A stretch of 64,000 nucleotides of DNA from Halalkalibacter oceani (GTDB lineage Bacteria; Bacillota; Bacilli; Bacillales; Bacillaceae_D), in the NCBI RefSeq assembly GCF_023715605.1, contig NZ_JAMBOL010000006.1, positions 1 through 64,000 of the forward strand. The letters run 5' to 3'. Below, one piece after another: positions 5,042 through 19,980 of the stretch. The translations under genes were made by a program, and so were the position numbers. The notes under the pieces are model-generated. The model was not told the origin of the DNA. It made no database searches and saw only the letters and a program-made list of their open reading frames with translations. The stretch's first letter is position 1. Each line of letters begins with the position of its first letter.

Positions 5042-6318
5042 TTTGGGTGTTTTTAGGCGTATTATTTTTCTTCCTCTTCCTAGGGTTGCCTGTTGTTTTT
5101 TCAATGCTTATGAGTGCGGTTGCCATGATGCTTGTCATGGGGATTTTTGATTCTCAGGTCGTAGCGCAACAGCTCGTAAATGGAGCGAACAGCTTCCCGT
5201 TGATGGCGATTCCATTCTTTATTCTTGCTGGTGAAATTATGAACGCCGGTGGTATTTCAAAACGAGTCGTTCATTTCGCGACAACACTTGTCGGACATAT
5301 CCGCGGTGGTCTCGGGTATGTAACGATCCTGGCGGGTGTGATGTTTGCCGGGTTATCAGGTTCAGCGGTAGCTGATACAGCCGCGCTTGGGGCGATTTTG
5401 ATCCCGATGATGGTTGCCCGCGGTTACAATGTCAACCGGGCATCAGGACTTGTCGCATCCTCGGGGATTATCGCGCCGATCATCCCGCCGAGTATTCCTC
5501 TAATCATGTTTGGTGTTATTGGTGGCGTTTCCATTACCCAATTATTTATGGGCGGGATCGTACCGGGTATTTTATTTGCTGTAGGGCTGATGGTCGCCTG
5601 GTACTTTGTCGCCAAGCGTGGAAACTATGAAACGATGGAAAAAGCGACCGCTAAAGAAAGATTGAGAGCTTTTGGTCAGGCGATCTGGGCGCTATTCTTA
5701 CCTTTTATCATTATCGTCGGTTTAAGGGGCGGGATTTTCACGCCAACTGAGGCAGCTGTTATTGCCTGTGTGTATGCGCTTTTAATCAGCTTGACTGTAT
5801 ATCGCGGAGATCTGAAAATCAGACAGCTTCCTGAGGTTCTCGTTGCTTCGGCGAAAACAACTGGTGTTGTTATGTTCCTCGCCGCCGCCGCAATTGTGAC
5901 ATCATGGGTCATTACCGTCGCTCAAGTGCCGGCTGAGCTGGCGACGATGCTAAGCGGTATTACAGAAAGTCCACTTGTGCTGCTGCTTATCTTAATGGTG
6001 TTCTTGCTGTTAGTCGGAGTGGTCATGGATATGACACCAGCAATTCTTATCTTCACTCCGGTCTTGCTGCCTGTCGTTACGGCAGCGGGGATTGATCCGG
6101 TATACTTCGGGATTTTAATGATTATTAACCTTTGTATCGGCTTAATCACTCCGCCGGTCGGAACGGTGCTTTATGTCGCGTGTGGGATTAGCCGCATTAG
6201 TATTATTGACATTACGAAAGGAATCTGGCCTTTCCTGCTTGTCCAGATCCTGGTGTTATTCCTGCTAGTCCTGTTCCCGCAAATCATTCTCGTTCCGCTG
6301 GAATGGCTCACGAAGTAG
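5038..6318 (+). CDS. dctM: TRAP transporter large permease, DctM type
   Basis: A 426-residue multi-spanning membrane protein of usual family length. Family signatures include PFFILAGEIMNAGGIS, GLSGSAVADTAALGAILIPMM, GIIAPIIPPSIPLIMFGV and the C-terminal half motif NLCIGLITPPVGTVLYV. It is the sodium-coupled transport subunit working with DctQ and the binding protein DctP. The gene order here is Q-M-P, with the binding-protein gene last behind an intercistronic hairpin. Confidence 0.95.
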   Translation: MIWVFLGVLFFFLFLGLPVVFSMLMSAVAMMLVMGIFDSQVVAQQLVNGANSFPLMAIPFFILAGEIMNAGGISKRVVHFATTLVGHIRGGLGYVTILAGVMFAGLSGSAVADTAALGAILIPMMVARGYNVNRASGLVASSGIIAPIIPPSIPLIMFGVIGGVSITQLFMGGIVPGILFAVGLMVAWYFVAKRGNYETMEKATAKERLRAFGQAIWALFLPFIIIVGLRGGIFTPTEAAVIACVYALLISLTVYRGDLKIRQLPEVLVASAKTTGVVMFLAAAAIVTSWVITVAQVPAELATMLSGITESPLVLLLILMVFLLLVGVVMDMTPAILIFTPVLLPVVTAAGIDPVYFGILMIINLCIGLITPPVGTVLYVACGISRISIIDITKGIWPFLLVQILVLFLLVLFPQIILVPLEWLTK

Positions 6319-6332
6319 TGTAACGTTTCACC

Positions 6333-6376
6333 GAGTTGTCTCAAAAGGTCGGCTAAACAGCCTTTTGAGACAACTC
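6333..6376 (+). terminator. Intercistronic stem-loop between dctM and dctP
   Basis: GAGTTGTCTCAAAAGG pairs with CCTTTTGAGACAACTC as a perfect 16-bp stem around a 12-base loop. No T run follows, so it probably protects or processes the mRNA or partly attenuates it rather than ending transcription. Its core AAAAGG/CCTTTT resembles the terminator hairpin family found elsewhere in the window. Confidence 0.65.
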
Positions 6377-6457
6377 TCACGAGGAAAGTGACTTTTTGTT
6401 TAGAAGGTTAGTAAGCCAATGGCTGCTATAGATAATACATTTAAGGAGGAGACAAAG

Positions 6458-7525
6458 ATGAAAAAGAGTCAATTACTGAACCGTTTTTTAGGAATAACGA
6501 TGGCAAGTGTCCTTTTCCTCACTGCTTGTGGTGGTGGAGACGAGGCATCCACTGATGGTGGTGGAGAGGCAAATGGCGGAGGCGAAGGAGCTGCGACTGA
6601 AGAGTCACATACGATTAAAATTGCTCACTACTTCGCAGAAGACCACCCGCAAAATATCGCCTTACAAGAAGTATTTAAGCCAACGGTTGAAGAAAACTCA
6701 GGCGGCAGCCTAACAGTTGAAATTTATCCGAACAGTCAGCTTGGTGCAGAGCAGGAGTTCTATGATGGGGTTCGTAACGGGACAATCGAAATGGGGATTC
6801 CTGGTATGATCATGCAGTCCTCAGTCGAAAAGCTTGCAGTCGGAGAATGGCCATTCCTATTTGAAGATTACGAGCACGTGAAAAACGTATTAAACGGACC
6901 AATTGGTGATGAACTAATGGCTGATCTTGAAGAAATCCATGGGGTGAAGCCTTTAGCCTGGAGTGCAAACGGTTTCAGAATGGTGTCGAGCGATAAGCTG
7001 ATTGATAGCATGGATGACTTCAGCGGCTTCCGGATGCGTACACCAAACATTCCAAACTACATTGAAATGTGGGAATTGCTTGGAACAAATGTAACTCCGC
7101 TTGCTATTTCTGAGGTGTTCACCGGACTTGAGCAAGGCGTTATTAATGGCCAGGAAAACCCTGTCGCTACAGTGCGTGCATCAGGCTGGTATGAGGTACA
7201 GTCGAATGTCCTTGAATCAAACCATATGTTCAGCCCGAACCTTTATATCATCAACTCTAATTTCTGGAACTCTCTAAGCCCGGAACAACAGCAGGTGATC
7301 CAGGATGCATCGCTCGAGTCAGCGGCGTATGAATTTGAATTAATGGAAAACAGCTATGAAGAAGACCGTGCGTATTTAGAGGAGCACGGTGTCGAATTCA
7401 CGACTCCGTCTGATGAATTCAGACAGCAAATGATCGACGCTGTTCAGCCAATGTATGATTCATTCTTCGAACAGTATGACTGGGCAGAAGACATTGTCGA
7501 GAGAATTCAAGCAGAAGCCCAATAA
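6458..7525 (+). CDS. dctP: TRAP transporter solute-binding lipoprotein, DctP family
   Basis: A 355-residue extracytoplasmic binding protein. The signal peptide ends at lipobox LTAC with Cys24 as lipid anchor, followed by a Gly/Glu-rich linker. The DctP fold shows in IKIAHYFAEDHPQN, EIYPNSQLGAEQEF and the ligand-contact region FSGFRMRTPNIPNY, which carries the arginine that usually binds the substrate carboxylate, followed by GQENP. The ATG at 6458 was chosen because AAGGAGGAGA precedes it and the signal peptide starts there. The neighbouring enolase-superfamily enzyme suggests a sugar acid as substrate; this is inference. Confidence 0.92.
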   Translation: MKKSQLLNRFLGITMASVLFLTACGGGDEASTDGGGEANGGGEGAATEESHTIKIAHYFAEDHPQNIALQEVFKPTVEENSGGSLTVEIYPNSQLGAEQEFYDGVRNGTIEMGIPGMIMQSSVEKLAVGEWPFLFEDYEHVKNVLNGPIGDELMADLEEIHGVKPLAWSANGFRMVSSDKLIDSMDDFSGFRMRTPNIPNYIEMWELLGTNVTPLAISEVFTGLEQGVINGQENPVATVRASGWYEVQSNVLESNHMFSPNLYIINSNFWNSLSPEQQQVIQDASLESAAYEFELMENSYEEDRAYLEEHGVEFTTPSDEFRQQMIDAVQPMYDSFFEQYDWAEDIVERIQAEAQ

Positions 7526-7581: not shown

Positions 7582-7617
7582 GGAATTATGCCAAATGAGG
7601 AAAAGAAGGTGGGAGTT

Positions 7618-8769
7618 ATGAAAGTAACCAATTTAACAGTTCACGTATTGCAGGTGCCCTTGGAAACGCCCTTTGCTTTCTCGCAAGGATGGGTCAGGCA
7701 GCGGAGCACTGTACTAGTTGAAATCGAAACCGATGAAGGAATAACCGGCTGGGGAGAATCATTATGTCACGGTTTGCAGCCGCCTGAGGTAGCGGCGGCG
7801 ATTATCGAGCACAGCCTGGCACCGCTTGTCATTGGACAGGATCCGTTTGATGTTGAAGTCATCTGGGATAAGCTTTTTACCTTTACTCGTCCTTATCACG
7901 GTGGAGCTGTAATTAACGCGATGAGTGCTGTCGACATTGCTCTATGGGATATTGTCGGAAAAGCGGTCAATAAGCCGGTGCATAAATTATTAGGAGGAGC
8001 TTACCGGACAGAAATAATGCCGTATGCTACCGGATTCTATCGTGAGGAAACGAAACAGTACCCTGAAGCGGCGATTGAGGAAGCGCAGCGTCATATTGAA
8101 AAAGGATTTAGGGCAATGAAGCTCAAAACGGGCTTCGGGATGAAAGTGGACGTTGACTATATTACAGCTGTTCGTCAAGCTGTCGGCGCCGAGATTCTTC
8201 TAATGGCGGATGCCAATTGTGCCTATAATGCGGCAACAGCGAGACGCATTTTGTTTGAGCTAGCTGAGGCGGACGCTGATCTTTACTGGTTCGAGGAACC
8301 GCTTGATCCCGAGGATATTGGCGGCTACAAAGAGCTGAAGGGACTGACTTCCACCTTTATTGCCTCCGGTGAAAATCAGTTTGGCCCAATCGGGTTTCGT
8401 GATTGGGTCGCAAACCGCGCCCTCGACGTCTTACAGCCGGATTTATGCTCCTCGGGAGGGTTTACCGCCTGTAAACGGATCGCCGTATTAGCGTCAACAT
8501 GGAATACGATGCTAAACCCCCACGTATGGGGTTCTGGAGTAGGACTGGCTGCTTCCCTGCAATATTTGGCAACAATTCCACCGGCCCGGCTGGCGCTGAA
8601 ACCGGTCGAACCGATGCTAGAGTACGATCAGTCCTCTCATCCTTTCCGCTCGGAGCTGATTTTTGATCAAATTTCAATGAATGAACAGGGAATGGTCAAG
8701 ATCCCGTCTCAACCAGGCATCGGGGTTGAGATTAACCGTCAAGTGATTAACAAGTATAAACAAAATTGA
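7618..8769 (+). CDS. Mandelate racemase/muconate lactonizing family enzyme (enolase superfamily)
   Basis: A 383-residue enolase-superfamily enzyme. The capping domain covers about residues 1-130 and the barrel follows. The KxK catalytic motif is Lys168-Leu-Lys170. Metal ligands are Asp198 (MADANCAYN), Glu226 (FEEPLDPED) and Glu252 (ASGEN). An Asp275/His302 pair (QPDLC and NPHVWGSG) marks the mandelate racemase subgroup, whose members mostly dehydrate or epimerise acid sugars such as glucarate, galactarate or gluconate. The exact substrate cannot be read from the sequence. The ATG at 7618 follows AAGGTGGGAG; an upstream ATG at 7588 has no such site. It probably acts on the acid imported by the adjacent TRAP system. 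Confidence 0.88.
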   Translation: MKVTNLTVHVLQVPLETPFAFSQGWVRQRSTVLVEIETDEGITGWGESLCHGLQPPEVAAAIIEHSLAPLVIGQDPFDVEVIWDKLFTFTRPYHGGAVINAMSAVDIALWDIVGKAVNKPVHKLLGGAYRTEIMPYATGFYREETKQYPEAAIEEAQRHIEKGFRAMKLKTGFGMKVDVDYITAVRQAVGAEILLMADANCAYNAATARRILFELAEADADLYWFEEPLDPEDIGGYKELKGLTSTFIASGENQFGPIGFRDWVANRALDVLQPDLCSSGGFTACKRIAVLASTWNTMLNPHVWGSGVGLAASLQYLATIPPARLALKPVEPMLEYDQSSHPFRSELIFDQISMNEQGMVKIPSQPGIGVEINRQVINKYKQN

Positions 8770-9600: not shown

Positions 9601-10470
9601 TCATAAATGGCGCACATCTAACTCCGCAACGAATTCAACGAAAGCATTGACAATGTTAAGTTGTAAGGTGTCATCTTTAACGATCATCCAAGTTTTGCGA
9701 ATAACGGGTTTGCCATCTTTATCGAGCAGATCCATTTTATAAAGGTCCTGCCGGTCATCAAGGATCGCGCTTGGAAAAATTCCGTAGCCTAATCCGTGAA
9801 TGACCATCTCCTTGCATGTATCTACCTTATCGACCTCCATCCCGATAAGGGGAGGCTGAGAGTAATTTTCCCTCCACCAGTTATCAATTGTCGTTTTTAA
9901 TAATGGTTCGGTCTGATAATTGACTCTCGCCAACGACGGCAGATTTTCCATCGAGATATTCCTCTGTGAAGCGACGCAAATCGTTTCTTCAAATAATAAA
10001 TGCTTGCTTTCATGCCACGTATAATCCCCTCTGACAAAGCCGATGTGGACATCATTGTTACTCACTAGCTGAAAGACATCTTTGCTGCGGCCAGCAATCA
10101 CTTGAAACTCCACATCCGGATAAAGATTGTGAAACAGCTTTAACAGGCGCGGAAGTTTGTATCTAGTGAAAATGTGGGAAACAGCGATTCGTAATGTTCC
10201 GGTGACATCCTTGCCAATATTCTTTACATCCTCTTTAATCAGCCTGATTTTTAACAGCATTTCATCTGCCGTTTTGGCCAGATATTCTCCTTCTGATGTG
10301 AAATGAACCCCTCTTCTTCCACGATGAATTAATTGGACACCGAATTCCTTTTCTATTTGCTGAATCCGGTTTGTTAAAGCAGGCTGGGAGATAAATAACT
10401 GGTTAGCCGCTTTTGTAATGTTTTTCGTTTGAAAAAGTACCTTTATAATTTGCCAGTCCTGATCCCTCAC
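9601..10470 (-). CDS. LysR-family transcriptional regulator
   Basis: A 289-residue LysR-type regulator. The N-terminal winged helix-turn-helix covers about residues 5-60 (KNITKAANQLFISQPALTNR), and a periplasmic-binding-protein-like effector domain follows. It starts with GTG at 10470 behind a GGGGGAGAG ribosome binding site. It is divergent from the rraA-prpF-larA cluster with a 180-base shared upstream region, the usual arrangement for a LysR activator of the neighbouring operon. The inducer is unknown, probably the cluster substrate or an intermediate. Confidence 0.92.
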   Translation of the reverse strand: MRDQDWQIIKVLFQTKNITKAANQLFISQPALTNRIQQIEKEFGVQLIHRGRRGVHFTSEGEYLAKTADEMLLKIRLIKEDVKNIGKDVTGTLRIAVSHIFTRYKLPRLLKLFHNLYPDVEFQVIAGRSKDVFQLVSNNDVHIGFVRGDYTWHESKHLLFEETICVASQRNISMENLPSLARVNYQTEPLLKTTIDNWWRENYSQPPLIGMEVDKVDTCKEMVIHGLGYGIFPSAILDDRQDLYKMDLLDKDGKPVIRKTWMIVKDDTLQLNIVNAFVEFVAELDVRHL

Positions 10471-10650
10471 GAACTCTCCCCCCCATTGCTTCTATCTCTT
10501 TCTTCTATTATACCTGGACTTTACTAATCTGACATAACCAAAATCTATCAATATTTATAAGAATGTTATATTTTACTTATTTCTCAAGCTCGATAAAATG
10601 AACATAAGTCAAAGCAAATGTTTGAATTTTGGAAAAAGGGGTGGAAGTGA
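10471..10650. promoter_or_regulatory. Divergent regulatory region lysR/rraA
   Basis: An AT-rich 180-base region. An interrupted palindrome AATAT-N13-ATATT is present, and several T-N11-A matches could serve LysR. A candidate rraA promoter is TTTACT (10572-10577) with TAAAAT (10594-10599), spacer 16. The block ATATTTTACTTATTTCT (10568-10584) recurs upstream of prpF. Confidence 0.45.
10568..10588 (+). repeat. Upstream element, copy 1 (before rraA)
   Basis: ATATTTTACT-T-ATTTCT-C-AAG. Copy 2 is at 11295-11314 and differs by one substitution and one missing base. Both copies lie 60-85 bases before a start codon of the same cluster, so a shared operator or promoter element is likely. Confidence 0.5.
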
Positions 10651-11268
10651 ATGGAGACTGACGGATTTCAACGAATCCCGACAACGGCGGTGGCCGATGC
10701 TTTGCAAGGGCTGAATACAATGGATACGTCAATAAAGCCATTGAAGCCGGAAAGCTATGTGTATGGGAAAGCCTTAACTGTTAAACTAGCTGATGCTGAT
10801 AATTTTCTGCTTTTGCAAGCAATTAGCCAAGCGAAAGGAGGCGAAGTCCTGGTCGTCGATGGGAGAGGTGACCAGCATCATGCTGTGGCGGGAGATTTTG
10901 TCGTGGCGATGGCCAAAACAATGGGACTGCGTGGAGTGGTAGCTGATGGCGTAATTCGCGATATTCAAGCGATCAACCGTCTGGAGTTTCCCGTATTCTG
11001 CAAAGGCTCGACAATAGCAGCGAGTCAGAAACATGGACGAGGAGAGACCAATGTGCCTATCTCATGCGGAGGGGTTGCTGTACGACCGGGTGACATTGTC
11101 GTTGGTGATGCAGATGGGGTTATCATCATTCCACAGGAAGTGGAAGAGCAGACGGTAAACGCCGCGAAGCAAAAGATTGTAGCCGATGAAAAGCGCTACG
11201 AGAGCATTGTTGGAAATGTTGAAGCTGTTAAAAATTATATTAACAGTTTAACGAATAGCCATAAGTAA
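10651..11268 (+). CDS. RraA-family protein, probable 4-hydroxy-4-methyl-2-oxoglutarate-type aldolase
   Basis: A 205-residue member of the RraA/dimethylmenaquinone-methyltransferase-like fold. It shows GGEVLVVDGRGDQHHAVAGD and the divalent-metal and oxalate site signature LRGVVADGVIRDI, with the conserved Arg-Asp pair. Members with this signature are class II aldolases that cleave 4-hydroxy-2-oxo acids (for example 4-carboxy-4-hydroxy-2-oxoadipate) or decarboxylate oxaloacetate. A role as RNase E inhibitor is unlikely in a Bacillus. Neighbours (PrpF-like isomerase, tricarboxylate transporter) support a carboxylic-acid substrate. GGGGTGG precedes the ATG. Confidence 0.85.
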   Translation: METDGFQRIPTTAVADALQGLNTMDTSIKPLKPESYVYGKALTVKLADADNFLLLQAISQAKGGEVLVVDGRGDQHHAVAGDFVVAMAKTMGLRGVVADGVIRDIQAINRLEFPVFCKGSTIAASQKHGRGETNVPISCGGVAVRPGDIVVGDADGVIIIPQEVEEQTVNAAKQKIVADEKRYESIVGNVEAVKNYINSLTNSHK

Positions 11269-11294
11269 AGGTTATCGATTTAGATAGAATTAAT

Positions 11295-11314
11295 ATATTT
11301 TACTGATTTCTAAG
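11295..11314 (+). repeat. Upstream element, copy 2 (before prpF-like gene)
   Basis: ATATTTTACT-G-ATTTCT-AAG, nearly identical to 10568-10588. It is followed by an AT-rich stretch with TATAGT, so prpF may also have its own promoter. Confidence 0.5.
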
Positions 11315-11372
11315 CCTTTATTATAGTAATAATACAGAAAATTTAAGCGATTCCTAAGCAGGGGGTGAGCCT

Positions 11373-12527
11373 ATGACGCAATTTTCAATACCTTGCTCTG
11401 TGTACAGAGGGGGGACGAGTCGGGGGCTGTTTTTTCATAAGCGGGATTTGCCCGGCGACATGGAAAAAATGAACAGGATTTTCCTTTCGGGAATAGATGC
11501 ATATAATCTTTCACAAATTGATGGCCTTGGTAGCGGTACCTCCCATACGAGCAAGGTCGTCGTTATTGCACCTTCATCAGCAGCAGAGGTGGATATTGAT
11601 TATACTTTTTTTCAAATCGGGATCGGCCGGGAAGTCGTGGATGATAACGGAACGTGCGGAAACCTGATGGCAGCGGTAGGAGCCTTTGCTGTCAATGAAA
11701 AGCTTATATCAGTATCAGATCATCAGCAGCATGCCGATGTCGTCGTTTATAACACGAATATGAAAAAGAAAATCGGGATTCGTGTACCTGTACAAAATGG
11801 TGAGGCGAAAGTAAATGGCGATTTTCTGATGCCGGGGCTTGTCAATGAAGGAGCCGCTTATCAAGTGAATATTCTCACGCCAGGCGGCGGAAAGACAGGG
11901 CGGACATTGCCGTTGGGAGAAATCTTTACAATGGAGAAGCCGAACTGGGAAAAGTCATACGAGCTGACGTTTGTCGATGCAGTTAACCCATTTATTTATG
12001 TGCGCAGTGAGGATTTAGGGATAAGAGGAACGGAAAACAATCAAGAGCTATCAGCAGACACGAATGTAATGGAGCGTTTAGAAGCGATTAGAAGTGAAGC
12101 TGCTGTTCAAAGTGGAATGGTCGCCACAGTGGAGGAAGCAAGACAAAAAAGCCCGGCAGTGCCGAAAATCGCCTTCGTCGCCGAACCACATGATTATTTT
12201 ACAGCAGCAAAAAAGCGGATTAAGCGAGAAGACGTGGATATCGTTGCGCGAATGATCTCGATGGAACGAGTACACCGGACGTTTGCTGGAAGCGGCCTTC
12301 TTAATTTAGCAGCCGCCGTATTGCTCCCGGGCACGTTGCCAAATCGGCTTTCTCGCTTTTATCAGCGAGCGGAGAAAGGGGAGAAAATCATTCGTATCGG
12401 TCACGCAGAAGGCATCGTGGAGGTACGGGCCGCCCTGACAGAAGACTTAACGGATATCGCTTATGTTGGATTAACCCGCACAGCCAGGAAAATTATGAAA
12501 GGTGAGTTGTTTATTCCAGTAAAATGA
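11373..12527 (+). CDS. PrpF-family isomerase (aconitate / 4-oxalomesaconate type)
   Basis: A 384-residue protein of the PrpF family, which has the diaminopimelate-epimerase fold. Visible landmarks are the N-terminal VYRGGTSRGLFF, GLGSGTSHTSKV and DDNGTCGNLMAAVGAFA, which carries the conserved catalytic cysteine region. Known members isomerise unsaturated tricarboxylates: PrpF (2-methylaconitate) and GalD (4-oxalomesaconate tautomerase). The exact substrate here is open. It stands between an RraA-type aldolase and a LarA-type racemase, so a hydroxy- or unsaturated tricarboxylate is likely. The ATG at 11373 is behind GGGGGTGAG. Confidence 0.85.
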   Translation: MTQFSIPCSVYRGGTSRGLFFHKRDLPGDMEKMNRIFLSGIDAYNLSQIDGLGSGTSHTSKVVVIAPSSAAEVDIDYTFFQIGIGREVVDDNGTCGNLMAAVGAFAVNEKLISVSDHQQHADVVVYNTNMKKKIGIRVPVQNGEAKVNGDFLMPGLVNEGAAYQVNILTPGGGKTGRTLPLGEIFTMEKPNWEKSYELTFVDAVNPFIYVRSEDLGIRGTENNQELSADTNVMERLEAIRSEAAVQSGMVATVEEARQKSPAVPKIAFVAEPHDYFTAAKKRIKREDVDIVARMISMERVHRTFAGSGLLNLAAAVLLPGTLPNRLSRFYQRAEKGEKIIRIGHAEGIVEVRAALTEDLTDIAYVGLTRTARKIMKGELFIPVK

Positions 12528-12596
12528 AAACGTTGCCATTAATTGAGAAATAGAGCTGAAAGGTGCTGAAAGCACGTCGAGGAAAGGTGAACAAAT

Positions 12597-13862
12597 ATGG
12601 ATAAGATAGAGATTCCTTATGGAGAGAAACAGAAACAAATCGAAAAACCGGAGAATTCGAGGGTGTTATTACCAATTGATATGCCGCCGTTGCCGAACCC
12701 GCGCGCGGAAATGGCGAGGAAGTTAAAACATCCGACAGGAAGTCCCTCCTTGAGAGAAATATGTATGGGGAAAGAATCGATTGTAATTGTCATCAATGAT
12801 ATTACAAGGCCGAGTCCGACAGACTTATTCGTTGAAGAAATGCTGAAGGAGATTGAAAAAGCCGGGATTACAGATGATCAAGTGACGTTAGTTGTTGCTT
12901 TAGGAAATCATCGGCCGAATACTGAAGAAGAATTAAAAAGGATGGTTGGTGAAAAGGTCCACAGCCGGGTGAAAATCATTAATCATGATTGCTATGATGA
13001 AAAGAATCTGGTTCATCTCGGCTTTACGAAAAGAGGCTTGCCGATTATTGTCAATCGGTACGTGGCCGAGGCATCTGTCCGGATCTTAACGGGAATTATT
13101 ACTCCGCATCAATCGGCTGGTTACAGTGGAGGAAGAAAAAGCATAATGCCTGGAGTGGCCGGAATTGAGGCGCTGACAAAGCATCATTCCTTTCCGATAA
13201 GATCCTATCATCCGATTCTTGGACAAATGATCGATAATCCATTTCATGATGAAGCGCTTGAAGCGGCCAAGCGGGTCGGCGTCGATTTTATTTTGAATGT
13301 AGTGAAGAACAGTAAGAAAGAGATTGTCTCTGTGGTCGCAGGAGATTTGGAGCAGGCTCACGCTGAAGGGGTAAGCATTTGTGATAAAAGCTGGAAGGTG
13401 AAAGTGGATCGTTATTATGACATTGTCATTACCAGTCCGGGAGGCTACCCAAAGGATTTCGATCTTCATCAGGCGCAAAAAGCGCTGTCGGCGGCAGAGG
13501 TCGTCACAAAAAAAGGAGGCGTCATTATCCTCGTGGCAGAATGCCGTGACGGAGTGGGCAAGTATGCGAAATGGCTGGTGGAAGCCAGCGACCCTCAGGA
13601 AGTGATTGATACATTTGAAAGAGTTGGTTTTACTCCCGATCACTCTTCGAAGGCTTTTATGCTGGCAAGAGCGCTTAAGAATCATCATGTTATTCTTGTC
13701 GATCCGCAAATCGATCCTGCTTTAGTTGAAGATATGTTTTTTATTTATGCTTCAACACTAGAGGAAGCCTTGAATAAGGGCTATCATATAATGGGTGATG
13801 CAGCAGAGACTCTATTTATTCCCCATGCGATTGATTGCATTCCGGAGGTCAACCTCCAATAA
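12597..13862 (+). CDS. LarA-family nickel-pincer racemase/epimerase (DUF2088)
   Basis: A 421-residue protein of the lactate racemase LarA superfamily. Residues that in LarA bind the nickel-pincer nucleotide or act in catalysis are present: Asp68 and Arg71 (NDITRPSP), His105 (GNHRP), His170 and Lys180 (TPHQSAGYSGGRKS), His196, and GGYPKDFDLHQAQKALSAAE further on. The family includes racemases/epimerases of lactate, malate, phenyllactate, 2-hydroxyglutarate and gluconate, so the substrate is a 2-hydroxy acid. LarB, LarC and LarE, needed to make the cofactor, are not in the window. GGAAAGGTG precedes the ATG. Assignment to the family is firm; substrate is inference. Confidence 0.9.
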   Translation: MDKIEIPYGEKQKQIEKPENSRVLLPIDMPPLPNPRAEMARKLKHPTGSPSLREICMGKESIVIVINDITRPSPTDLFVEEMLKEIEKAGITDDQVTLVVALGNHRPNTEEELKRMVGEKVHSRVKIINHDCYDEKNLVHLGFTKRGLPIIVNRYVAEASVRILTGIITPHQSAGYSGGRKSIMPGVAGIEALTKHHSFPIRSYHPILGQMIDNPFHDEALEAAKRVGVDFILNVVKNSKKEIVSVVAGDLEQAHAEGVSICDKSWKVKVDRYYDIVITSPGGYPKDFDLHQAQKALSAAEVVTKKGGVIILVAECRDGVGKYAKWLVEASDPQEVIDTFERVGFTPDHSSKAFMLARALKNHHVILVDPQIDPALVEDMFFIYASTLEEALNKGYHIMGDAAETLFIPHAIDCIPEVNLQ

Positions 13863-13863
13863 A

Positions 13864-13877
13864 TGTAAGCGCATACG
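13864..13877 (+). promoter_or_regulatory. Possible cre site before tctC
   Basis: TGTAAGCGCATACG matches the catabolite-responsive consensus TGWNANCGNTNWCA at all but two fixed positions and begins two bases after the larA-like stop codon. No clear promoter is associated, so this is tentative. Confidence 0.3.
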
Positions 13878-13935
13878 ATTTGGATGGAGCGCGTTGTTTT
13901 ACAAAATAGGAAAGTTTTTAAGGAGGAATTATTGT

Positions 13936-15078
13936 ATGAAGTCTAAGAAAATGAAAAATTGGTTTGTTGTCATGATTGTAAGTTTATTGTTTTTAGCAGC
14001 CTGTAATTCGTCCTCTTCCTCAGAAAATGGAAGTGGAAGTGAGACAGGCAGTGGGGATGGAGCATTTTACGATGGGGAGACGTTAGAAGTTATTGTACCA
14101 TTTAGTGCGGGAGGCGGAACAGATACGCTGTTTAGATATTTGGCCCAGTATATGAAGGAGCACACGGAAGGGAATCCTGCCCTTCAAGTGGTGAATATTG
14201 AAGGAGGAGGAAGTATAAACGGCGCCAATGAATATGTCGATTTACGCGAGCCAGATGGATTAACCGCTTTAGCTACAAGCGCTTCGACGAAGATCCCGTT
14301 CTTAATTGGTCAGGAAGCGGTTCGTTACGATTTGAGAGAACTTAAGCCAATCATTGGCACGCCAAACGGGGTAGTTCTGTACACCTCCCCTGATACAGGA
14401 TTAACAGAAGGAAAGGATTTACTGGATACAGATCAGGAATTAATTCTCGGAGCAACCTCTCCTACAGGCATCGACGTCATGACCTTACTTGCCTTGGAAG
14501 TATTGGGAGTGAAGGATAACATTCAGATCATTTTCGGCTATGAAGGAGCAGGCGCGTCACGGATCGCCTTTGAACAAGGAGAAACAAATCTCGACTATCA
14601 AAGTGGAACGGCCTATCAAAGTGATGTTAAGCCAATGGTAGAAGCCGGGCAAGCGATCCCGCTCTTTACCTACGGTTTTACCGGAAGTGATGGTGATATT
14701 GTTAGTGATCCTGCTTTTCCGGAAATTCCGACAGTAAAAGATGTCTATATTGATATGTATGGGGAAGAGCCTTCCGGCGAAGCGTGGGAAGCCTATAAAG
14801 CATTTGTCGGTATCGTCAATAACTTGCATAAATCACTTTGGCTTCATGCTGATGCCCCGCCTGAAGCAGTCGCTGCTTTACAGGAAGGTGCAGCAGGTGC
14901 TGTAGCAGACGAGCAGTTTATAGAAGAGGGCGCTGAAATTCTTGGTGGGTATGATCCGTTGGTTGGAGAAGATCTGGAGTCAGCGATTAGTGCACTGACG
15001 AGTATTAATGAAGAAACATTAGCGTGGGTAAGAAATTACTTGCGTGAGGAATATGACGTAACCGGTTTAATTGATTAA
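13936..15078 (+). CDS. tctC: Tripartite tricarboxylate transporter binding lipoprotein TctC
   Basis: A 380-residue extracytoplasmic binding protein of the TctC/Bug family. The signal peptide ends at lipobox LAAC (Cys23) and is followed by a Ser/Gly-rich linker. The family opening LEVIVPFSAGGGTDTLFRYLA forms the carboxylate-binding loop. The ATG at 13936 has AGGAGG upstream; the open frame begins earlier but without a signal peptide or ribosome site. With TctA and TctB it takes up citrate-like carboxylates. Confidence 0.93.
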   Translation: MKSKKMKNWFVVMIVSLLFLAACNSSSSSENGSGSETGSGDGAFYDGETLEVIVPFSAGGGTDTLFRYLAQYMKEHTEGNPALQVVNIEGGGSINGANEYVDLREPDGLTALATSASTKIPFLIGQEAVRYDLRELKPIIGTPNGVVLYTSPDTGLTEGKDLLDTDQELILGATSPTGIDVMTLLALEVLGVKDNIQIIFGYEGAGASRIAFEQGETNLDYQSGTAYQSDVKPMVEAGQAIPLFTYGFTGSDGDIVSDPAFPEIPTVKDVYIDMYGEEPSGEAWEAYKAFVGIVNNLHKSLWLHADAPPEAVAALQEGAAGAVADEQFIEEGAEILGGYDPLVGEDLESAISALTSINEETLAWVRNYLREEYDVTGLID

Positions 15079-15084
15079 GAGATA

Positions 15085-15133
15085 GTGGGTGAATGCTGTA
15101 GTGAAAGTCTGACTACAGCATTCGCTATTCACC
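15085..15133 (+). terminator. Intercistronic stem-loop between tctC and tctA
   Basis: Arms GTGAATGCTGTAGT and ACTACAGCATTC, the latter extended by GCTATTCAC, form a strong hairpin without a T run. It probably stabilises the binding-protein mRNA and lowers expression of the permease genes relative to tctC. Confidence 0.6.
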
Positions 15134-15151
15134 AGGAATGGAGGTATCATC

Positions 15152-16642
15152 TTGTTTGAAGCAGCGTTTGAAGCACTGTTTATTGTGTTAGATCCCTCGA
15201 GGATTTTGTTTATTTTTCTAGGCATTTTAGTCGGGATCACAGTAGGGTTTTTGCCGGGGCTTGGAGGCCCTGTCGGGATGTCTCTGCTGCTACCTTTTAT
15301 TTTCGGAATGGATCCTTTTACGGGAATTGCCTTGTTAATTGGGATGGTAGCCGTTATCCATACAGCGGATACGTTTCCTTCTGTGTTAATCGGGGTCCCC
15401 GGTTCTTCCGGATCCCAGGCGACGATTATGGACGGCTATCCATTGGCTCAGCAAGGCCAGGCCGCCAGGGCTTTAGGAGCTGCATTTATTTCTTCTATTA
15501 TCGGTGGAGTTATCGGCGCCATTATTTTATTTTTAGCGATCCCGATTGGCCGGCCGCTCGTATTGGCCTTTAGTTCCCCGGAACTCTTTATGCTAGCGAT
15601 ACTCGGATTGAGTATGGTCGGAATTTTAGCGGGTAATTCCATTTTTAAAGGATTGTCTGCCGGGGCACTTGGTATGTTGCTCGGCTCCGTCGGCGGAGCG
15701 CCGGCTACCGCCGAATACCGGTTTACGTTCGACTGGATTTATTTATTCAATGGTATTCCCCTTACCGTGTTGGCTCTTGGTCTTTTTGCGCTGCCGGAAA
15801 TGATTGATTTGCTCGTTGAAAAAAGAAGTGTGTCCAAAGGGCAGACGGTGGGCGGCAACCGAATGCAAGGGTTGAAAGATGTTATAAAAAACAAATGGCT
15901 CGTCTTCCGCAGTGCGGTGATGGGAGCTTTTATCGGCTTTATTCCAGGACTTGGAGGAAGTGTGGTCGACTGGATCAGCTACGGCGTAGCCAAACAAACA
16001 TCAAAGAATGCTGAGAACTTTGGGAAGGGAGACATCCGGGGTGTCATTGCGCCTGAGAGTGCCAATAATGCCAAAGAAGGCGGGACGCTCATTCCGACTT
16101 TAATGTTCGGTATACCGGGCAGTGGCACGACAGCCATCCTGTTAGGTGGACTGATCGTTCTCGGAGTAGAGGCCGGGCCAAGCATGCTGACGACGGACCT
16201 GCCTATCACCTTGACGATTGTCTGGACTCTTGCGTTAGCGAATATATTCGGGGCAGGTATTTGTTTCTTACTGGCCCGTCCTATTTCAAAAATCAGCACA
16301 ATCCCCGCCGAGAAGCTTGTTCCTTTTCTCCTTATCATCATGATGATCGGGGCGTATCAAAGTACCAGGCATTGGGGAGATTTTATTATTTTCATAGTAA
16401 TTGGTCTCATTGGATGGTGCATGAAACATCTGGATTGGCCGCGTGCCCCGTTACTCGTCGGCTTCGTTCTTTCGACTTCAGCAGAACGTTATTTACATCT
16501 GTCCATGTCGAGATATGGTTTTATGTGGCTCACACATCCTAAAGTAATCATTATCGGCCTGATCACCATTTTGATCATTGTTGCCGGGTTTTATATGAAG
16601 AGAGTGAGCGACCGCCAGCATAAAGGAGGGATGACAACATGA
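15152..16642 (+). CDS. tctA: Tripartite tricarboxylate transporter large permease TctA
   Basis: A 496-residue membrane protein with about twelve hydrophobic segments. It carries the paired TctA glycine signatures GFLPGLGGPVGMSLLLPF and GFIPGLGGSVVDWISYG, and FGIPGSGTTAILLGGL. It starts with TTG at 15152 behind GGAGG at good spacing. It is the cation-coupled transport subunit. It overlaps tctB by four bases. Confidence 0.95.
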   Translation: MFEAAFEALFIVLDPSRILFIFLGILVGITVGFLPGLGGPVGMSLLLPFIFGMDPFTGIALLIGMVAVIHTADTFPSVLIGVPGSSGSQATIMDGYPLAQQGQAARALGAAFISSIIGGVIGAIILFLAIPIGRPLVLAFSSPELFMLAILGLSMVGILAGNSIFKGLSAGALGMLLGSVGGAPATAEYRFTFDWIYLFNGIPLTVLALGLFALPEMIDLLVEKRSVSKGQTVGGNRMQGLKDVIKNKWLVFRSAVMGAFIGFIPGLGGSVVDWISYGVAKQTSKNAENFGKGDIRGVIAPESANNAKEGGTLIPTLMFGIPGSGTTAILLGGLIVLGVEAGPSMLTTDLPITLTIVWTLALANIFGAGICFLLARPISKISTIPAEKLVPFLLIIMMIGAYQSTRHWGDFIIFIVIGLIGWCMKHLDWPRAPLLVGFVLSTSAERYLHLSMSRYGFMWLTHPKVIIIGLITILIIVAGFYMKRVSDRQHKGGMTT

Positions 16643-17073
16643 AGGTAAAAAAGCAGACGCTGTCTCTCGTTTTTTCTGCGCTCATGCTGCTTTTATTTGG
16701 ATACATGGCGATTGAAGCGACCAACTTTCAATCATTGGCGAAATATTTCCCATTAACCATCGCCATTTTTGCGATTCTCGTATGTTTGATCGATCTACTG
16801 TTGCAATTGAAGCGCCGAAGCAAAACAACGGATGTTTCGTCGACCACTAGTTTGAAAGTATTGATTTATATCGGTTGGATTGTTGGTTATCTTGTGCTCA
16901 TTTTCTTCCTTGGGTTTATCGTTGGCACAGCAGTGTTTTTATTCGCCTTTCTTTATATTGAGACAGGATTCAAAATAGTGAAAGCGGCAGTAACGATGGG
17001 AATTACGATCGCAGTTATTTTCCTTTTTGGACGTGTGATTGGCTTATATTGGCCGTCGGGAATGTTTTTTTGA
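16639..17073 (+). CDS. tctB: Tripartite tricarboxylate transporter small permease TctB
   Basis: A 144-residue membrane protein with four hydrophobic segments and the TctB layout of two pairs separated by a polar loop (LKRRSKTTD). The start codon overlaps the tctA stop in an ATGA arrangement. The sequence is poorly conserved in this family, so the call relies on size, topology and position. Confidence 0.88.
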   Translation: MKVKKQTLSLVFSALMLLLFGYMAIEATNFQSLAKYFPLTIAIFAILVCLIDLLLQLKRRSKTTDVSSTTSLKVLIYIGWIVGYLVLIFFLGFIVGTAVFLFAFLYIETGFKIVKAAVTMGITIAVIFLFGRVIGLYWPSGMFF

Positions 17074-17094
17074 GAATAAAGGAGGCGGAAGAAG

Positions 17095-18459
17095 ATGAAT
17101 GTCATTCGAATCGTAGCCGGAACAGGGATGCTAGGGACCGGGTATTCAATTGAAAGCTTTCGTAAAGCGCTTTCCTTAAAACCGGACGTGATAGGCTGTG
17201 ATGCAGGTTCCACTGATCCGGGTCCCTATTATTTAGGAGCGGATCAGCCGATGGTTTCACGAGAAGCAACGAAGCGGGATTTGACTTATATGATTGAAGG
17301 AGCGCTGGAGTACGAAATTCCTCTGCTGATCGGAACGGCGGGAACCGCCGGGACGAATAAACTCGTTGATTGGACTGTCGAGATCGTAGCGGAGATTCTT
17401 CAGGAAAAAAAGATGCACTGTAGAGTTGCGAAAATATATTCCGAGATTTCAACCGATCAGCTGTTGAATTATTATTCACAAGGAAAACTAAAGCCGTTGG
17501 AAAATGCGCCAGAGCTCGGTGAGGAAGAGATTAAACGCCTAAGCAAAGCGGTCGGACAAATGGGGGTAGAGCCATATATTGAAGCATTAAAAAATGACGC
17601 GCAAATCATCATTGCCGGGCGTTCAAGTGATACTTCCATTTATGCCGCCGTTCCGATTATGAAAGGGTTAGAAAATGGAGCTGTCTGGCATGCTGCGAAA
17701 ATATTGGAATGCGGTGCTGGCTGTGTAGTGAACCGGCTTCATCCGGATAGTATGTTTGCGACGATTGGGGAGGATCATTTTGTGATTGAGCCGCCGAATG
17801 AAAAGATGAGCTGTAGCCCGGCAAGCGTGCTCTCACACTTTTTATATGAAAATACAGATCCTTATTACTTAAAGGAGCCTTCAGGTACATTGGATACGAG
17901 TAAAGCAACGTATACAGAGCAGGGAGAGCGGGCTGTCAAAGTGGCAGGGAGTGAATTTCACCGGGCCGATCAGTATACGATTCGAGTGGAGGGCGTCGAA
18001 CTCGTCGGCCATCGCCGGATTTGCATCGGCGGAATCCGTGATCCTTTTGTTTTGAAGCAGCTGTCTGAGTTTCTTGAAGAGGCCTTTCGGGTTGTGAAAA
18101 GAAAAGTGAGCGATAGCTTGGCAATTGAAGAAAATGACTATCAGCTGGCCCATAGAGTCTATGGACAGGCCGGGGTGATGGGGCGGTTAGAGCCGGAGCG
18201 GGAATTTGGCCATGAGGTTGGTCTATTATTCGAAGTCATTGCAGAAACGCCTGAGCAAAGCGAAGCGATTATGGCGATTGCCTGGCATACGCTCCTCCAT
18301 CATCCAATAAAGGAATGGTCCGGTCTAGTCAGCCAGGTCGCTTTCCCTTTCTCCCCTCCGGATGTCAGTATGGGAGAAGTGTTCCGCTTTGCAGTTAATC
18401 ATGTTATCGAAGTGCAGGATCCTTTAGAACTTTTTACGATTGATTACGTTGAGCTGTAA
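17095..18459 (+). CDS. AtuA-family protein (DUF1446)
   Basis: A 454-residue soluble protein of the acyclic terpene utilisation AtuA family. Typical stretches are the N-terminal AGTGMLGTGYS, DVIGCDAGSTDPGPYYLG, LLIGTAGTAGTN, IIAGRSSDTSIYA and ECGAGCVVNRLHPDSMF. The biochemical reaction of this family has not, to my knowledge, been established. It is followed after 12 bases by DUF4387, its usual small partner, and preceded by the tricarboxylate transporter. In this cluster it probably acts on the transported acid or its CoA or hydroxy derivative. GGAGGCGGAAG precedes the ATG. Confidence 0.85.
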   Translation: MNVIRIVAGTGMLGTGYSIESFRKALSLKPDVIGCDAGSTDPGPYYLGADQPMVSREATKRDLTYMIEGALEYEIPLLIGTAGTAGTNKLVDWTVEIVAEILQEKKMHCRVAKIYSEISTDQLLNYYSQGKLKPLENAPELGEEEIKRLSKAVGQMGVEPYIEALKNDAQIIIAGRSSDTSIYAAVPIMKGLENGAVWHAAKILECGAGCVVNRLHPDSMFATIGEDHFVIEPPNEKMSCSPASVLSHFLYENTDPYYLKEPSGTLDTSKATYTEQGERAVKVAGSEFHRADQYTIRVEGVELVGHRRICIGGIRDPFVLKQLSEFLEEAFRVVKRKVSDSLAIEENDYQLAHRVYGQAGVMGRLEPEREFGHEVGLLFEVIAETPEQSEAIMAIAWHTLLHHPIKEWSGLVSQVAFPFSPPDVSMGEVFRFAVNHVIEVQDPLELFTIDYVEL

Positions 18460-18471
18460 AGGGGGAAGAAA

Positions 18472-18780
18472 ATGATGACTTTAGGAAGTGTAGCAAAGCT
18501 GATTCGCTCAAAAAACGCCGGTCCTTTTATGCTGACGATTGATATTATTATGGACAGTGAAGAAAACTATCTGTTAGTGAAACATTCCACCAAGCTGTCT
18601 AAAGCGTTCATTGCTTCTTTATATGATTTAACAGCGGAAGAGATAAGCCTCATATATTGCGATGAGGTGAAAGCTCTCAAAATTTCTTTCCCGAGACCTG
18701 TCAGTTCAGGGGATATTGGCGATGGTGATGTTTTTGGCGGTCAGCAGCACGGACCGCTTGTCGAGCTTGACTTCTCATAA
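18472..18780 (+). CDS. DUF4387 family protein, AtuA partner
   Basis: A 102-residue protein with the DUF4387 pattern: LIRSKNAGPFMLTIDIIM near the start, an internal stretch of conserved hydrophobics, and GDIGDGDVFGGQQHGPL at the C-terminus. In other AtuA-type proteins a comparable small domain accompanies the large one, so the two probably form one enzyme. No signal peptide or membrane segment. GGGGGAAG precedes the ATG. Confidence 0.85.
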   Translation: MMTLGSVAKLIRSKNAGPFMLTIDIIMDSEENYLLVKHSTKLSKAFIASLYDLTAEEISLIYCDEVKALKISFPRPVSSGDIGDGDVFGGQQHGPLVELDFS

Positions 18781-18865
18781 AAACTGCCTGCCGAAAGAAA
18801 AAGTGGTAAAATAAAGGAGCAAAGAGGCAACAGTGAAGTTGTCGAACAAGCGGGAGGCGCTTCTT

Positions 18866-19912
18866 ATGCAAAAAATCCTTTATCTGATCATTGCGATAAC
18901 CGTTGGCGGGTTATGCGCGTTAGGGCAAGTTCCCGCAGGCTGGTTGCTGGGTTCTCTTGTCACGGGCCTTATCTGTGCCTTTTTTATAAAAAAATTATAT
19001 TTTCCTGATAGTTTGTTTAAAGTGGCGCTTGCGATCATTGGCGCAACAATTGGTTTTAGAGTGATTCCCGAGCAGTTTATCACCTACCGCTCATTGTTGC
19101 TGCCTTTTGTTTTTGTGTTCCTGTTAACGATCACAGGGGGATTGCTGCTCGGTAAGTTCATGCAACGTTTTTCAAGCCTGCATCCAAACACGGCTTTTTT
19201 TTGCTGTATGCCGGGTGGCGCTTCGGAAGTCATCGCGCTGAGCAAGGAGTATGGGGCTGACCAGCAGGTTGTGGCTGCGTTCCACACGACGAGAATTACG
19301 GTGTTCGTTCTCTTTATACCACTCATTATCGGATTAAACGTACCGATTCCGGCGCAAAATGGTTCAGCTGGCGGGGTGATGATTGGTGACGCGCTTCTTT
19401 CTTTCGTCTGTATCGGCGGAATCGGTCTTGTCACCCTGTTGCTCGGGAAGCGGATTCCGCTCCCGGGTTCGTCGCTGTTTCTGGCGATTGCGCTCGGGTT
19501 TGTCTTTCATCAATGGGTCGTGCCGACGCTTGAGATTCCCAGCTTTGTTTCCGGCATTGCCCAAGGGCTGATGGGGGCGATTATCGGAATCCGGTTTGAT
19601 AAGGAAACGCTTTTGGAGTTGAAAGAAATTGGCGGTGTCAGTTTAATGACGCTGGCGCTTTATTTTGTAATGAGCTTTGGGCTGGCGGGGCTGTTTTACT
19701 TACTGACGCCGCTTGAGTTCTTCACCAGCCTTTTGAGTGTCGTGCCGGCCGGTGCTGCTGAAATGGCTTCGACCGCGACGGCGCTCCATGTTGAGCCGAT
19801 GATGGTTGCCACCTTGCAAATGATGAGGGTATTAACGCTGTTTGCGGCGTTGCCGTTTTTAATTAAATGGTTTTCAAAGCCGGTCAACGAAAAAAAGAAA
19901 GTGCGGGTTTAA
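18866..19912 (+). CDS. AbrB-family membrane protein (PF05145)
   Basis: A 348-residue integral membrane protein with about ten hydrophobic segments in two repeats. It has the family pattern GQVPAGWLLGSLVTG with CCMPGGASEVIALSKEYGAD in the first half, and a similar VPAGAAEMASTATAL in the second half. Databases label the family AbrB or putative ammonia monooxygenase, but it looks like a transporter; it is unrelated to the AbrB transcription factor. The ATG at 18866 follows GGGAGG; an upstream GTG at 18833 is possible. As last gene before a terminator it probably belongs to the same carboxylate cluster. Confidence 0.85.
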   Translation: MQKILYLIIAITVGGLCALGQVPAGWLLGSLVTGLICAFFIKKLYFPDSLFKVALAIIGATIGFRVIPEQFITYRSLLLPFVFVFLLTITGGLLLGKFMQRFSSLHPNTAFFCCMPGGASEVIALSKEYGADQQVVAAFHTTRITVFVLFIPLIIGLNVPIPAQNGSAGGVMIGDALLSFVCIGGIGLVTLLLGKRIPLPGSSLFLAIALGFVFHQWVVPTLEIPSFVSGIAQGLMGAIIGIRFDKETLLELKEIGGVSLMTLALYFVMSFGLAGLFYLLTPLEFFTSLLSVVPAGAAEMASTATALHVEPMMVATLQMMRVLTLFAALPFLIKWFSKPVNEKKKVRV

Positions 19913-19933
19913 ACGGAATAAGCGGGAAAACAG

Positions 19934-19980
19934 ATCGCCTTAAAGGTTGAACATTCAGCCTTTAAGGCGATTATTTTTTT
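19934..19980 (+). terminator. Terminator of the rraA-abrB cluster
   Basis: ATCGCCTTAAAGG pairs with CCTTTAAGGCGAT over 13 bp, followed by TATTTTTTT. Confidence 0.9.

Follow-up and report, generated by a model that had tools for sequence, protein, structure and literature searches.

Positions 1 to 64,000 of contig NZ_JAMBOL010000006.1 of Halalkalibacter oceani (assembly GCF_023715605.1, 4.47 Mb; contig C91 in our numbering), a stretch of 64,000 nucleotides that we call the window, contain nine plus-strand genes (10651-19912) encoding, in order, RraA, PrpF, LarA, TctC, TctA, TctB, AtuA, DUF4387 and AbrB-type proteins, as identified from open reading frames (ORFs) and Pfam. The nine genes are likely to form a single operon, which we tentatively propose, with confidence somewhat short of even, to serve the uptake and catabolism of six-carbon (C6) tricarboxylates (trans- and cis-aconitate, citrate, and the isocitrate stereoisomers); we infer every substrate and the order of the steps. 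The idea of a pathway for hydroxy- or unsaturated tricarboxylates, put forward in an original prediction made from the DNA letters, is supported. The C6 assignment draws on four lines of evidence: the neighbors of PrpF, the presence of the tricarballylate utilization protein TcuA in AtuA loci, the regions around LysR relatives, and the precedent of the tar locus.

In the proposed pathway, the divergently encoded LysR protein would sense a tricarboxylate and TctCAB would import it, the AbrB-type protein perhaps assisting. PrpF would shift the double bond between trans- and cis-aconitate, and the housekeeping aconitase would convert the product to citrate and isocitrate; the genome encodes AcnA (1507 bits) and isocitrate-dehydrogenase-family enzymes (IsoDH; seven matches). 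The AtuA/DUF4387 pair would split a 2-hydroxy-2-substituted succinate into acetate and a 2-oxo acid, and since citrate is the C6 analogue of citramalate, it is a candidate substrate for a pair resembling citramalate lyase (CmlAB). RraA would decarboxylate the resulting beta-keto acid (oxaloacetate to pyruvate) or cleave a related keto acid by an aldol reaction, and LarA would act on a secondary hydroxy acid, for example (allo)isocitrate, inverting its C2 to make it usable by the housekeeping isocitrate dehydrogenase.

Orthologues of the window PrpF (58-60% identity) are found in five other genomes of the 299 in the order. PrpB is encoded next to PrpF in four of these (G054, G197, G204, G251) and AcnA in two (G204, G251), while in G221 the PrpF gene adjoins one for TcuA. 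Both AcnA proteins pass their NCBIfam cut-off (1295 and 1326 bits against 945) and reach 782 and 776 bits with the AcnD model (cut-off 1420); the three PrpB proteins scored all pass theirs (409-433 bits against 354). The proximity of PrpF orthologues to PrpB, AcnA or TcuA therefore points to C6 tricarboxylates. The window PrpF retains the lysine and cysteine that correspond to residues K73 and C107 in the Shewanella protein.

To describe the surroundings of AtuA, we compiled 120 regions besides the window: 31 from genomes of the order, nine plasmid regions, and 80 named loci (the best 80 of 159 relatives). Excluding L013, which sits at a contig end and holds only DUF4387, 119 loci remain. Within 10 kb of AtuA (tblastn, 1e-6) we counted TctC-like genes in 56 loci, TctA in 17, TcuA-like genes in 11, PrpB in eight, IsoDH in six, RraA and PrpF in three each, and LarA in two; these are lower bounds, since several regions are shorter and the count omits L039 and L038, which hold the second half of the G054 and of the G221 island, respectively. 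DUF4387 follows AtuA on the same strand within 300 bases for 123 of the 125 AtuA matches in these loci. The AtuA/DUF4387 pair is thus used in many contexts, and the combination seen in the window is rare. The expectation that the enzyme families of the operon would co-occur in other genomes was borne out in part: they mostly occur apart, as the counts for LarA, RraA and PrpF indicate, but their close relatives recur jointly in a few genomes.

Those genomes appear among 16 comparison clusters, each selected for a gene closely related to one of the window's (in this comparison, an identity of 100 marks the locus that supplied the query). Shouchella shacheensis (L047) encodes LysR (40% identity), IsoDH, TcuA, TctC (57%), TctA (71%), TctB, AtuA (60%), DUF4387 (62%), Ldh2 and RraA (52%). 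The G054 island (L029/L039) spans more than 20 kb and includes LysR (47%), RraA (49%), PrpF (59%), TctC (50%), TctA (67%), AtuA (44%), DUF4387 (49%) and pieces of AbrB, along with PrpB, a PrpD-type protein, Ldh2, TcuA (about 15 kb from AtuA), IsoDH, two amidohydrolases, more PrpF copies and two transporter types. G221 combines TctA (68%), AtuA (45%) and PrpF (58%) with TcuA, IsoDH, and PrpB-like and PrpD-like genes. LarA occurs in three further clusters: G331, with LysR (53%), LarA (47%), TctC (47%), TctA (65%), PrpF (48%), an aconitase-family hydratase, and no AtuA match; G015, with LarA (56%), DUF4387 (56%), AtuA (57%), IsoDH, an RraA-family protein and Ldh2; and Fredinandcohnia onubensis, with AtuA (58%), DUF4387, IsoDH, LarA (65%) and a GntR regulator. 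TcuA exceeds its cut-off of 369 bits, with 482-593 bits, in all eight AtuA-bearing loci or islands scored (G054, G221, Shouchella and five loci from metagenome-assembled genomes (MAGs)). In the MAG loci TcuA lies inside the 10 kb retrieved, though sometimes in a different operon from AtuA. Four further TcuA-like matches (L051, L098, L119, L124) are outside this set of eight. The IsoDH proteins of four clusters (L028, L038, L047, L049) score best with isopropylmalate, homoisocitrate or isocitrate dehydrogenase models and lower with tartrate dehydrogenase, all under the cut-offs, and share an N-[PA]-SG motif; a second IsoDH of G015 has SLWGLL, which we take to mark D-malate/tartrate enzymes.

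LysR relatives provide the third line of evidence. At an E-value of 1e-65, 44 of 299 class genomes have a match (the window's own included). We inspected 20 regions from 19 genomes around relatives 51-59% identical; of the 22 best matches outside the window's genome, these regions cover 21, the exception being that at G917:C4. At least one gene of the module (AbrB, TctA, PrpF, AcnA, IsoDH, RraA, TcuA) is found in 14 of the 20: AbrB in nine, TctA in six, PrpF in four, AcnA, RraA and IsoDH in two each, and TcuA in one. The AbrB-duplication gene adjoins the LysR gene in its nine regions (L136-L144; three genera), four of which also have TctA, hinting at a role for this protein in carboxylate transport. 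The intergenic region between LysR and RraA holds promoter-like sites at 10535-10507 (minus strand) and 10572-10599 (plus strand) and a single TTATAA at 10555, in numbers that do not exceed those in shuffled sequences, which makes them weak candidates. CcpC responds to citrate, and its box has the form ATAA-N7-TTAT; over the window, neither this box nor the TarR box TTATAA is found above chance. The fourth line is the tar locus of Bacillus velezensis, where, according to PMC11495376, LysR binds trans-aconitate and not citrate, and a PrpF-family protein is the aconitate isomerase. The tar-type pairing of a divergent LysR with a PrpF-family isomerase is present in the window, with RraA between the two.

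The AtuA/DUF4387 pair was originally regarded as having no settled reaction, a view that is now outdated. AtuA (E 6.2e-97) and the DUF4387 protein (E 1.1e-23) match the two chains of PDB entries 9erq/9evf, named "Acyclic terpene utilization AtuA family protein | Citramalate lyase, subunit A (cmlA)" and "DUF4387 domain-containing protein | Citramalate lyase, subunit B (cmlB)". The citramalate lyase reaction is taken here from these deposit names alone; among the papers searched there was none on the complex (the PDB codes matched only papers about HIV drugs) and none that mentions DUF4387. An alignment of 110 AtuA homologues has 29 columns with at least 95% conservation, and neither the window protein nor CmlA departs from any of them; the window DUF4387 protein likewise retains the three strongly conserved columns among 74 homologues. 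The reaction type of CmlAB may carry over to the window pair; the substrate need not. In a quick maximum-likelihood tree of 112 AtuA proteins (SH-aLRT support only, midpoint root, long branches present), CmlA shares a 23-row group with the Prevotella and Klebsiella proteins (53% and, for the Klebsiella plasmid AtuA, 56% identical to CmlA), and the window protein falls in a separate group of seven with those of Shouchella, Fredinandcohnia, Paenibacillus koleovorans, G015, Jiangella and a Christensenellaceae MAG. With an identity to CmlA of only 37% and a place in another clade, the window AtuA may have a different substrate; a true citramalate lyase, as defined by clade membership, was rejected on these grounds, and we claim membership of the family only. 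The product name AtuA is misleading; under the proposed pathway, one branch of a family usually annotated as acyclic terpene utilization belongs to tricarboxylate metabolism, with substrates that can be tested.

The pair also occurs in other settings. A Prevotella nigrescens plasmid record (L033) carries it among methylaspartate-pathway genes, followed by a 314-residue protein without a Pfam hit and a two-subunit fumarase. AtuA matches are present in 12 Klebsiella plasmid records; in the one whose gene context was viewed (L035; K. pneumoniae NZ_CP138692.1, typed as conjugative), the pair is accompanied by several aldehyde dehydrogenases and a class I fumarase. In three MAG loci (L068, L077, L079; one titled Nitrospinota), AtuA/DUF4387 is followed about 4 kb further downstream by genes for large and small subunits resembling aconitase/isopropylmalate dehydratase; ORFs on the opposite strand intervene.

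The window LarA has both LarA domains and the catalytic residues, and genes for its cofactor are present in the genome. Its best NCBIfam model is the malate racemase LarAH6 (456.1 bits), under the equivalog cut-off of 500, by which the assignment as malate racemase was rejected; its best PDB hit is Mar2 (6d6z). The lysine that binds the nickel-pincer nucleotide (NPN) cofactor is also retained. The catalytic histidine is followed by Gln-Ser in the window protein and in G015 (L028), and by Gln-Thr in Fredinandcohnia (L049) and in a second LarA of the window's genome (L045); the residues after the second catalytic histidine are Phe-Phe in LarA1 and Tyr-Lys in Mar2, according to PMC7583248. By its sequence, the window LarA belongs to a distinct His-Gln-Ser/Thr subgroup. 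Among the 299 genomes of the order, LarA proteins at least 50% identical are found only in the window's genome (G000, twice) and G015; the Fredinandcohnia protein was found through its AtuA neighbor. At an E-value of 1e-95, six of 398 genomes of the phylum match, the window's own included. For four of the five other matches (L127, L128, L130, L131) there is an aconitase-family gene at most about 10 kb away, and for L129 there is none; L130 and L131 are from one genus, have a His-Tyr loop, and have the aconitase gene on the opposite strand. LarA adjoins DUF4387 in G015, and only IsoDH and one short ORF separate the two in Fredinandcohnia. Because the His-Gln-Ser/Thr subgroup differs in its substrate loop and is repeatedly linked to AtuA/DUF4387, a new NPN-dependent reaction can be sought directly.

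LarA enzymes act by hydride transfer from the carbinol carbon (PMC11770544, PMC7583248). Because this mechanism needs a hydrogen on that carbon, citramalate and citrate cannot be LarA substrates; isocitrate, malate or 3-methylmalate could be. The order first suggested for the pathway, racemization followed by isomerization and aldol cleavage, is not supported. The boldest reading of the window LarA is an isocitrate/alloisocitrate epimerase; isocitrate is unmentioned in the leading literature matches for LarA and NPN, as listed. Extended to the whole operon, this reading would make the His-Gln-Ser/Thr LarA a nickel-pincer epimerase acting at C2 of a hydroxy-tricarboxylate (isocitrate/alloisocitrate), and AtuA/DUF4387 a two-subunit lyase of citrate or another 2-hydroxytricarboxylate that dispenses with the carrier-protein machinery on which classical citrate lyase relies. 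We consider this combination doubtful; if true, it would constitute an undescribed route from mixed aconitate/isocitrate pools to pyruvate, acetate and 2-oxoglutarate.

The window's genome encodes LarB, LarC1, LarC2 and LarE, and LarC and LarE are found in G000, G015, G331 and Fredinandcohnia; a congener, G002, has no LarA match, no LarC, and LarE matches only under the cut-off. In the window's genome, larC2 (5650-6132, plus strand) and larC1 (6120-6854, minus strand; L135, contig C113) are convergent, beside larB and larE, whereas the larC parts of G015 overlap on one strand. An inversion, an assembly error or a real arrangement are all possible. The second LarA (L045, 9907-10932, contig C54) is 55% identical to the window protein, matches nothing of the first 74 residues, and is followed by a GntR gene; it looks truncated.

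Several observations weigh against the C6 proposal. None of the 16 comparison clusters holds the full set, nor PrpF, LarA and AtuA together, and the window operon itself has no aconitase, TcuA, PrpB or dehydrogenase inside it. The window PrpF has 3-methylitaconate isomerase as its best PDB match and reaches 255 bits with the 2-methylaconitate isomerase equivalog (cut-off 440.55). AtuA ranks only 74th of 111 in closeness to CmlA, apart from its divergent position in the tree. The alpha-14 lysine kept in the window LarA is used by Mar2 for the second carboxylate and suits malate too, and with larC1 and larC2 on opposite strands, NPN synthesis is not assured. Six of the 20 LysR-relative regions have no module gene, and seven of the 14 module-bearing regions (seven of the nine with AbrB) are from one genus, g395, so that independent support is smaller than the counts. 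G054 and G221, without LarA nearby, carry 2-hydroxyacid dehydrogenases of the Ldh2 and D-isomer families, which could do LarA's job by oxidation; G015 has LarA and Ldh2 together, which speaks against simple replacement of one by the other and leaves it only a suggestion.

Since citramalate cleavage is the only named reaction found for the AtuA/DUF4387 family, the main rival is a five-carbon (C5) branched-dicarboxylate pathway, which we regard as possible but on the unlikely side. It would import citramalate, itaconate, mesaconate or 3-methylmalate; PrpF would shift the double bond, the pair would be a true citramalate lyase producing pyruvate and acetate, LarA would epimerize 3-methylmalate, and RraA would decarboxylate methyl-oxaloacetate. 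The CmlA/CmlB deposit names agree with such a pathway, as do the PDB match of PrpF and the Prevotella nigrescens record, where the pair accompanies glutamate mutase, methylaspartate ammonia-lyase and the two-subunit fumarase. However, the window operon has no fumarase, mesaconase or LeuCD by Pfam, PrpF orthologues and several AtuA genes have proteins named for tricarboxylates (AcnA, PrpB, TcuA) as their neighbors, and the window AtuA lies outside the CmlA/Prevotella group. It is improbable that the operon is centered on malate or tartrate, with LarA racemizing malate, RraA decarboxylating oxaloacetate and the remaining proteins handling related acids: LarAH6 and Mar2 are the best matches of LarA, but the equivalog cut-off, the Gln-Ser in place of the Tyr-Lys of Mar2, and the cluster IsoDH scores given above all argue otherwise.

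The PrpB genes beside four of the five PrpF orthologues would also fit a seven-carbon (C7) route, the 2-methylcitrate/2-methylisocitrate pathway, with the pair in place of PrpB; 2-methylisocitrate, which is citramalate bearing a carboxymethyl substituent, would be split into pyruvate and succinate, and from the chemistry, the cleaved bond would equal that in citramalate. Against this quite improbable route, the partner aconitase is AcnA and not AcnD, on which basis the methylcitrate cycle was rejected; two queries found no citrate-synthase-type hit in 11 loci, LarA cannot act on tertiary alcohols, and PrpB and the AtuA/DUF4387 pair are both present in G054 and G221. A lower protocatechuate 4,5-cleavage or gallate-type pathway, with PrpF as oxalomesaconate (OMA) isomerase and RraA as 4-carboxy-4-hydroxy-2-oxoadipate (CHA) aldolase, appears very improbable. 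The window RraA has the CHA aldolase/oxaloacetate decarboxylase 3noj as its best PDB match, and the G054 island encodes two amidohydrolases of PF04909, the family of LigI/LigJ; yet NCBIfam gives no hit for these amidohydrolases, Pfam shows neither a hydratase nor a ring-cleavage gene in the window operon, and NCBIfam cut-offs, by which the CHA/OMA pathway was rejected, exclude both assignments (OMA tautomerase 241 bits against 440; CHA aldolase equivalogs 123 against 179 and 106 against 304.5). The operon is a variant of known organic-acid operons, and there is a chance that its LarA and lyase pair have undescribed substrates.

The layout originally described, nine genes on one strand with a divergent LysR and a terminator, is confirmed by ORFs, Pfam, and an 18-pair stem followed by a T run, and the gene families named in it by Pfam, NCBIfam or PDB matches (Table 1); literature searches likewise found, among the matches listed, no described pathway with exactly this set. 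TctA and TctB overlap by 4 bases, and the widest gap, between RraA and PrpF, is 104 bases. The LysR gene falls immediately outside the interval that had been delimited (10471..19912). The R-D signature claimed for RraA is present (VIRDI). TctC has no Pfam hit at 1e-3; a profile of five TctC relatives finds Bug/TctC structures (2dvz, 5e-11; BugD, 8e-9), and the sequences therefore include TctA, TctB and a Bug-type binding protein, as expected of a tripartite tricarboxylate transporter. The AbrB-duplication protein, which is not the DNA-binding AbrB, is perhaps an accessory transporter. An ammonium transporter gene is next after the cluster. Upstream, at 7588-8769, there is a gene for an enolase-superfamily dehydratase (galactonate-dehydratase-like, 196 bits against a cut-off of 311); nothing ties it to the operon.

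Table 1. Features of the predicted operon and its upstream region in the window.
Feature	Coordinates	Strand	Basis
LysR-type regulator, divergent	9601..10470	-	NCBIfam: CcpC best model, 251 bits, under cut-off 400
Intergenic region common to LysR and RraA	10471..10650		promoter-like sites and one TTATAA
RraA-like aldolase/decarboxylase, R-D motif	10651..11268	+	PF03737, 1.4e-46
PrpF-family isomerase	11373..12527	+	Pfam, NCBIfam, PDB alignment
LarA-type nickel-pincer racemase/epimerase, His-Gln-Ser subgroup	12597..13862	+	LarAH6, 456 bits, cut-off 500
TctC/Bug-type substrate-binding lipoprotein, LAAC lipobox	13936..15078	+	profile of five relatives
TctA, large membrane subunit	15152..16642	+	PF01970, 1.1e-129
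TctB, small membrane subunit	16639..17073	+	PF07331, 9e-10
AtuA family, CmlA homologue	17095..18459	+	Pfam and PDB sequence match
DUF4387, CmlB homologue	18472..18780	+	Pfam and PDB sequence match
AbrB-duplication membrane protein	18833..19912	+	PF05145/TIGR03082
Intrinsic terminator, 18-pair stem then T run	19933..19972	+	sequence

Among known systems, CmlAB (9erq, 9evf) resembles the window pair in near full-length homology of both subunits, in the adjacency of their genes and in the conserved AtuA columns, and differs in identity, in clade, and in that the window operon is without methylaspartate-pathway genes. The tar system for trans-aconitate assimilation (tarR, tarAB), which we liken by description rather than sequence, has in common with the window a LysR, a shared promoter, a PrpF-family isomerase and a transporter, as given in PMC11495376; the tar system has a major facilitator superfamily (TarB-type) importer where the window has Tct, and three TTATAA boxes where the window intergenic region has one, and the window operon adds RraA, LarA, AtuA/DUF4387 and AbrB. 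LarAH6/Mar2 (6d6z; PMC7583248) share full-length homology, the second catalytic histidine and the two lysines discussed above with the window LarA, whose subgroup has an HQ(S/T) loop in contrast to the HYK of Mar2, and whose score is under the equivalog cut-off. In tricarballylate utilization, the window operon differs in being without TcuA, while the Shouchella, G054 and G221 islands pair TcuA with a TctA 67-71% identical to that of the window. Finally, although its TctC is divergent, the window encodes TctC, TctA and TctB in order, like the tripartite tricarboxylate transporters.

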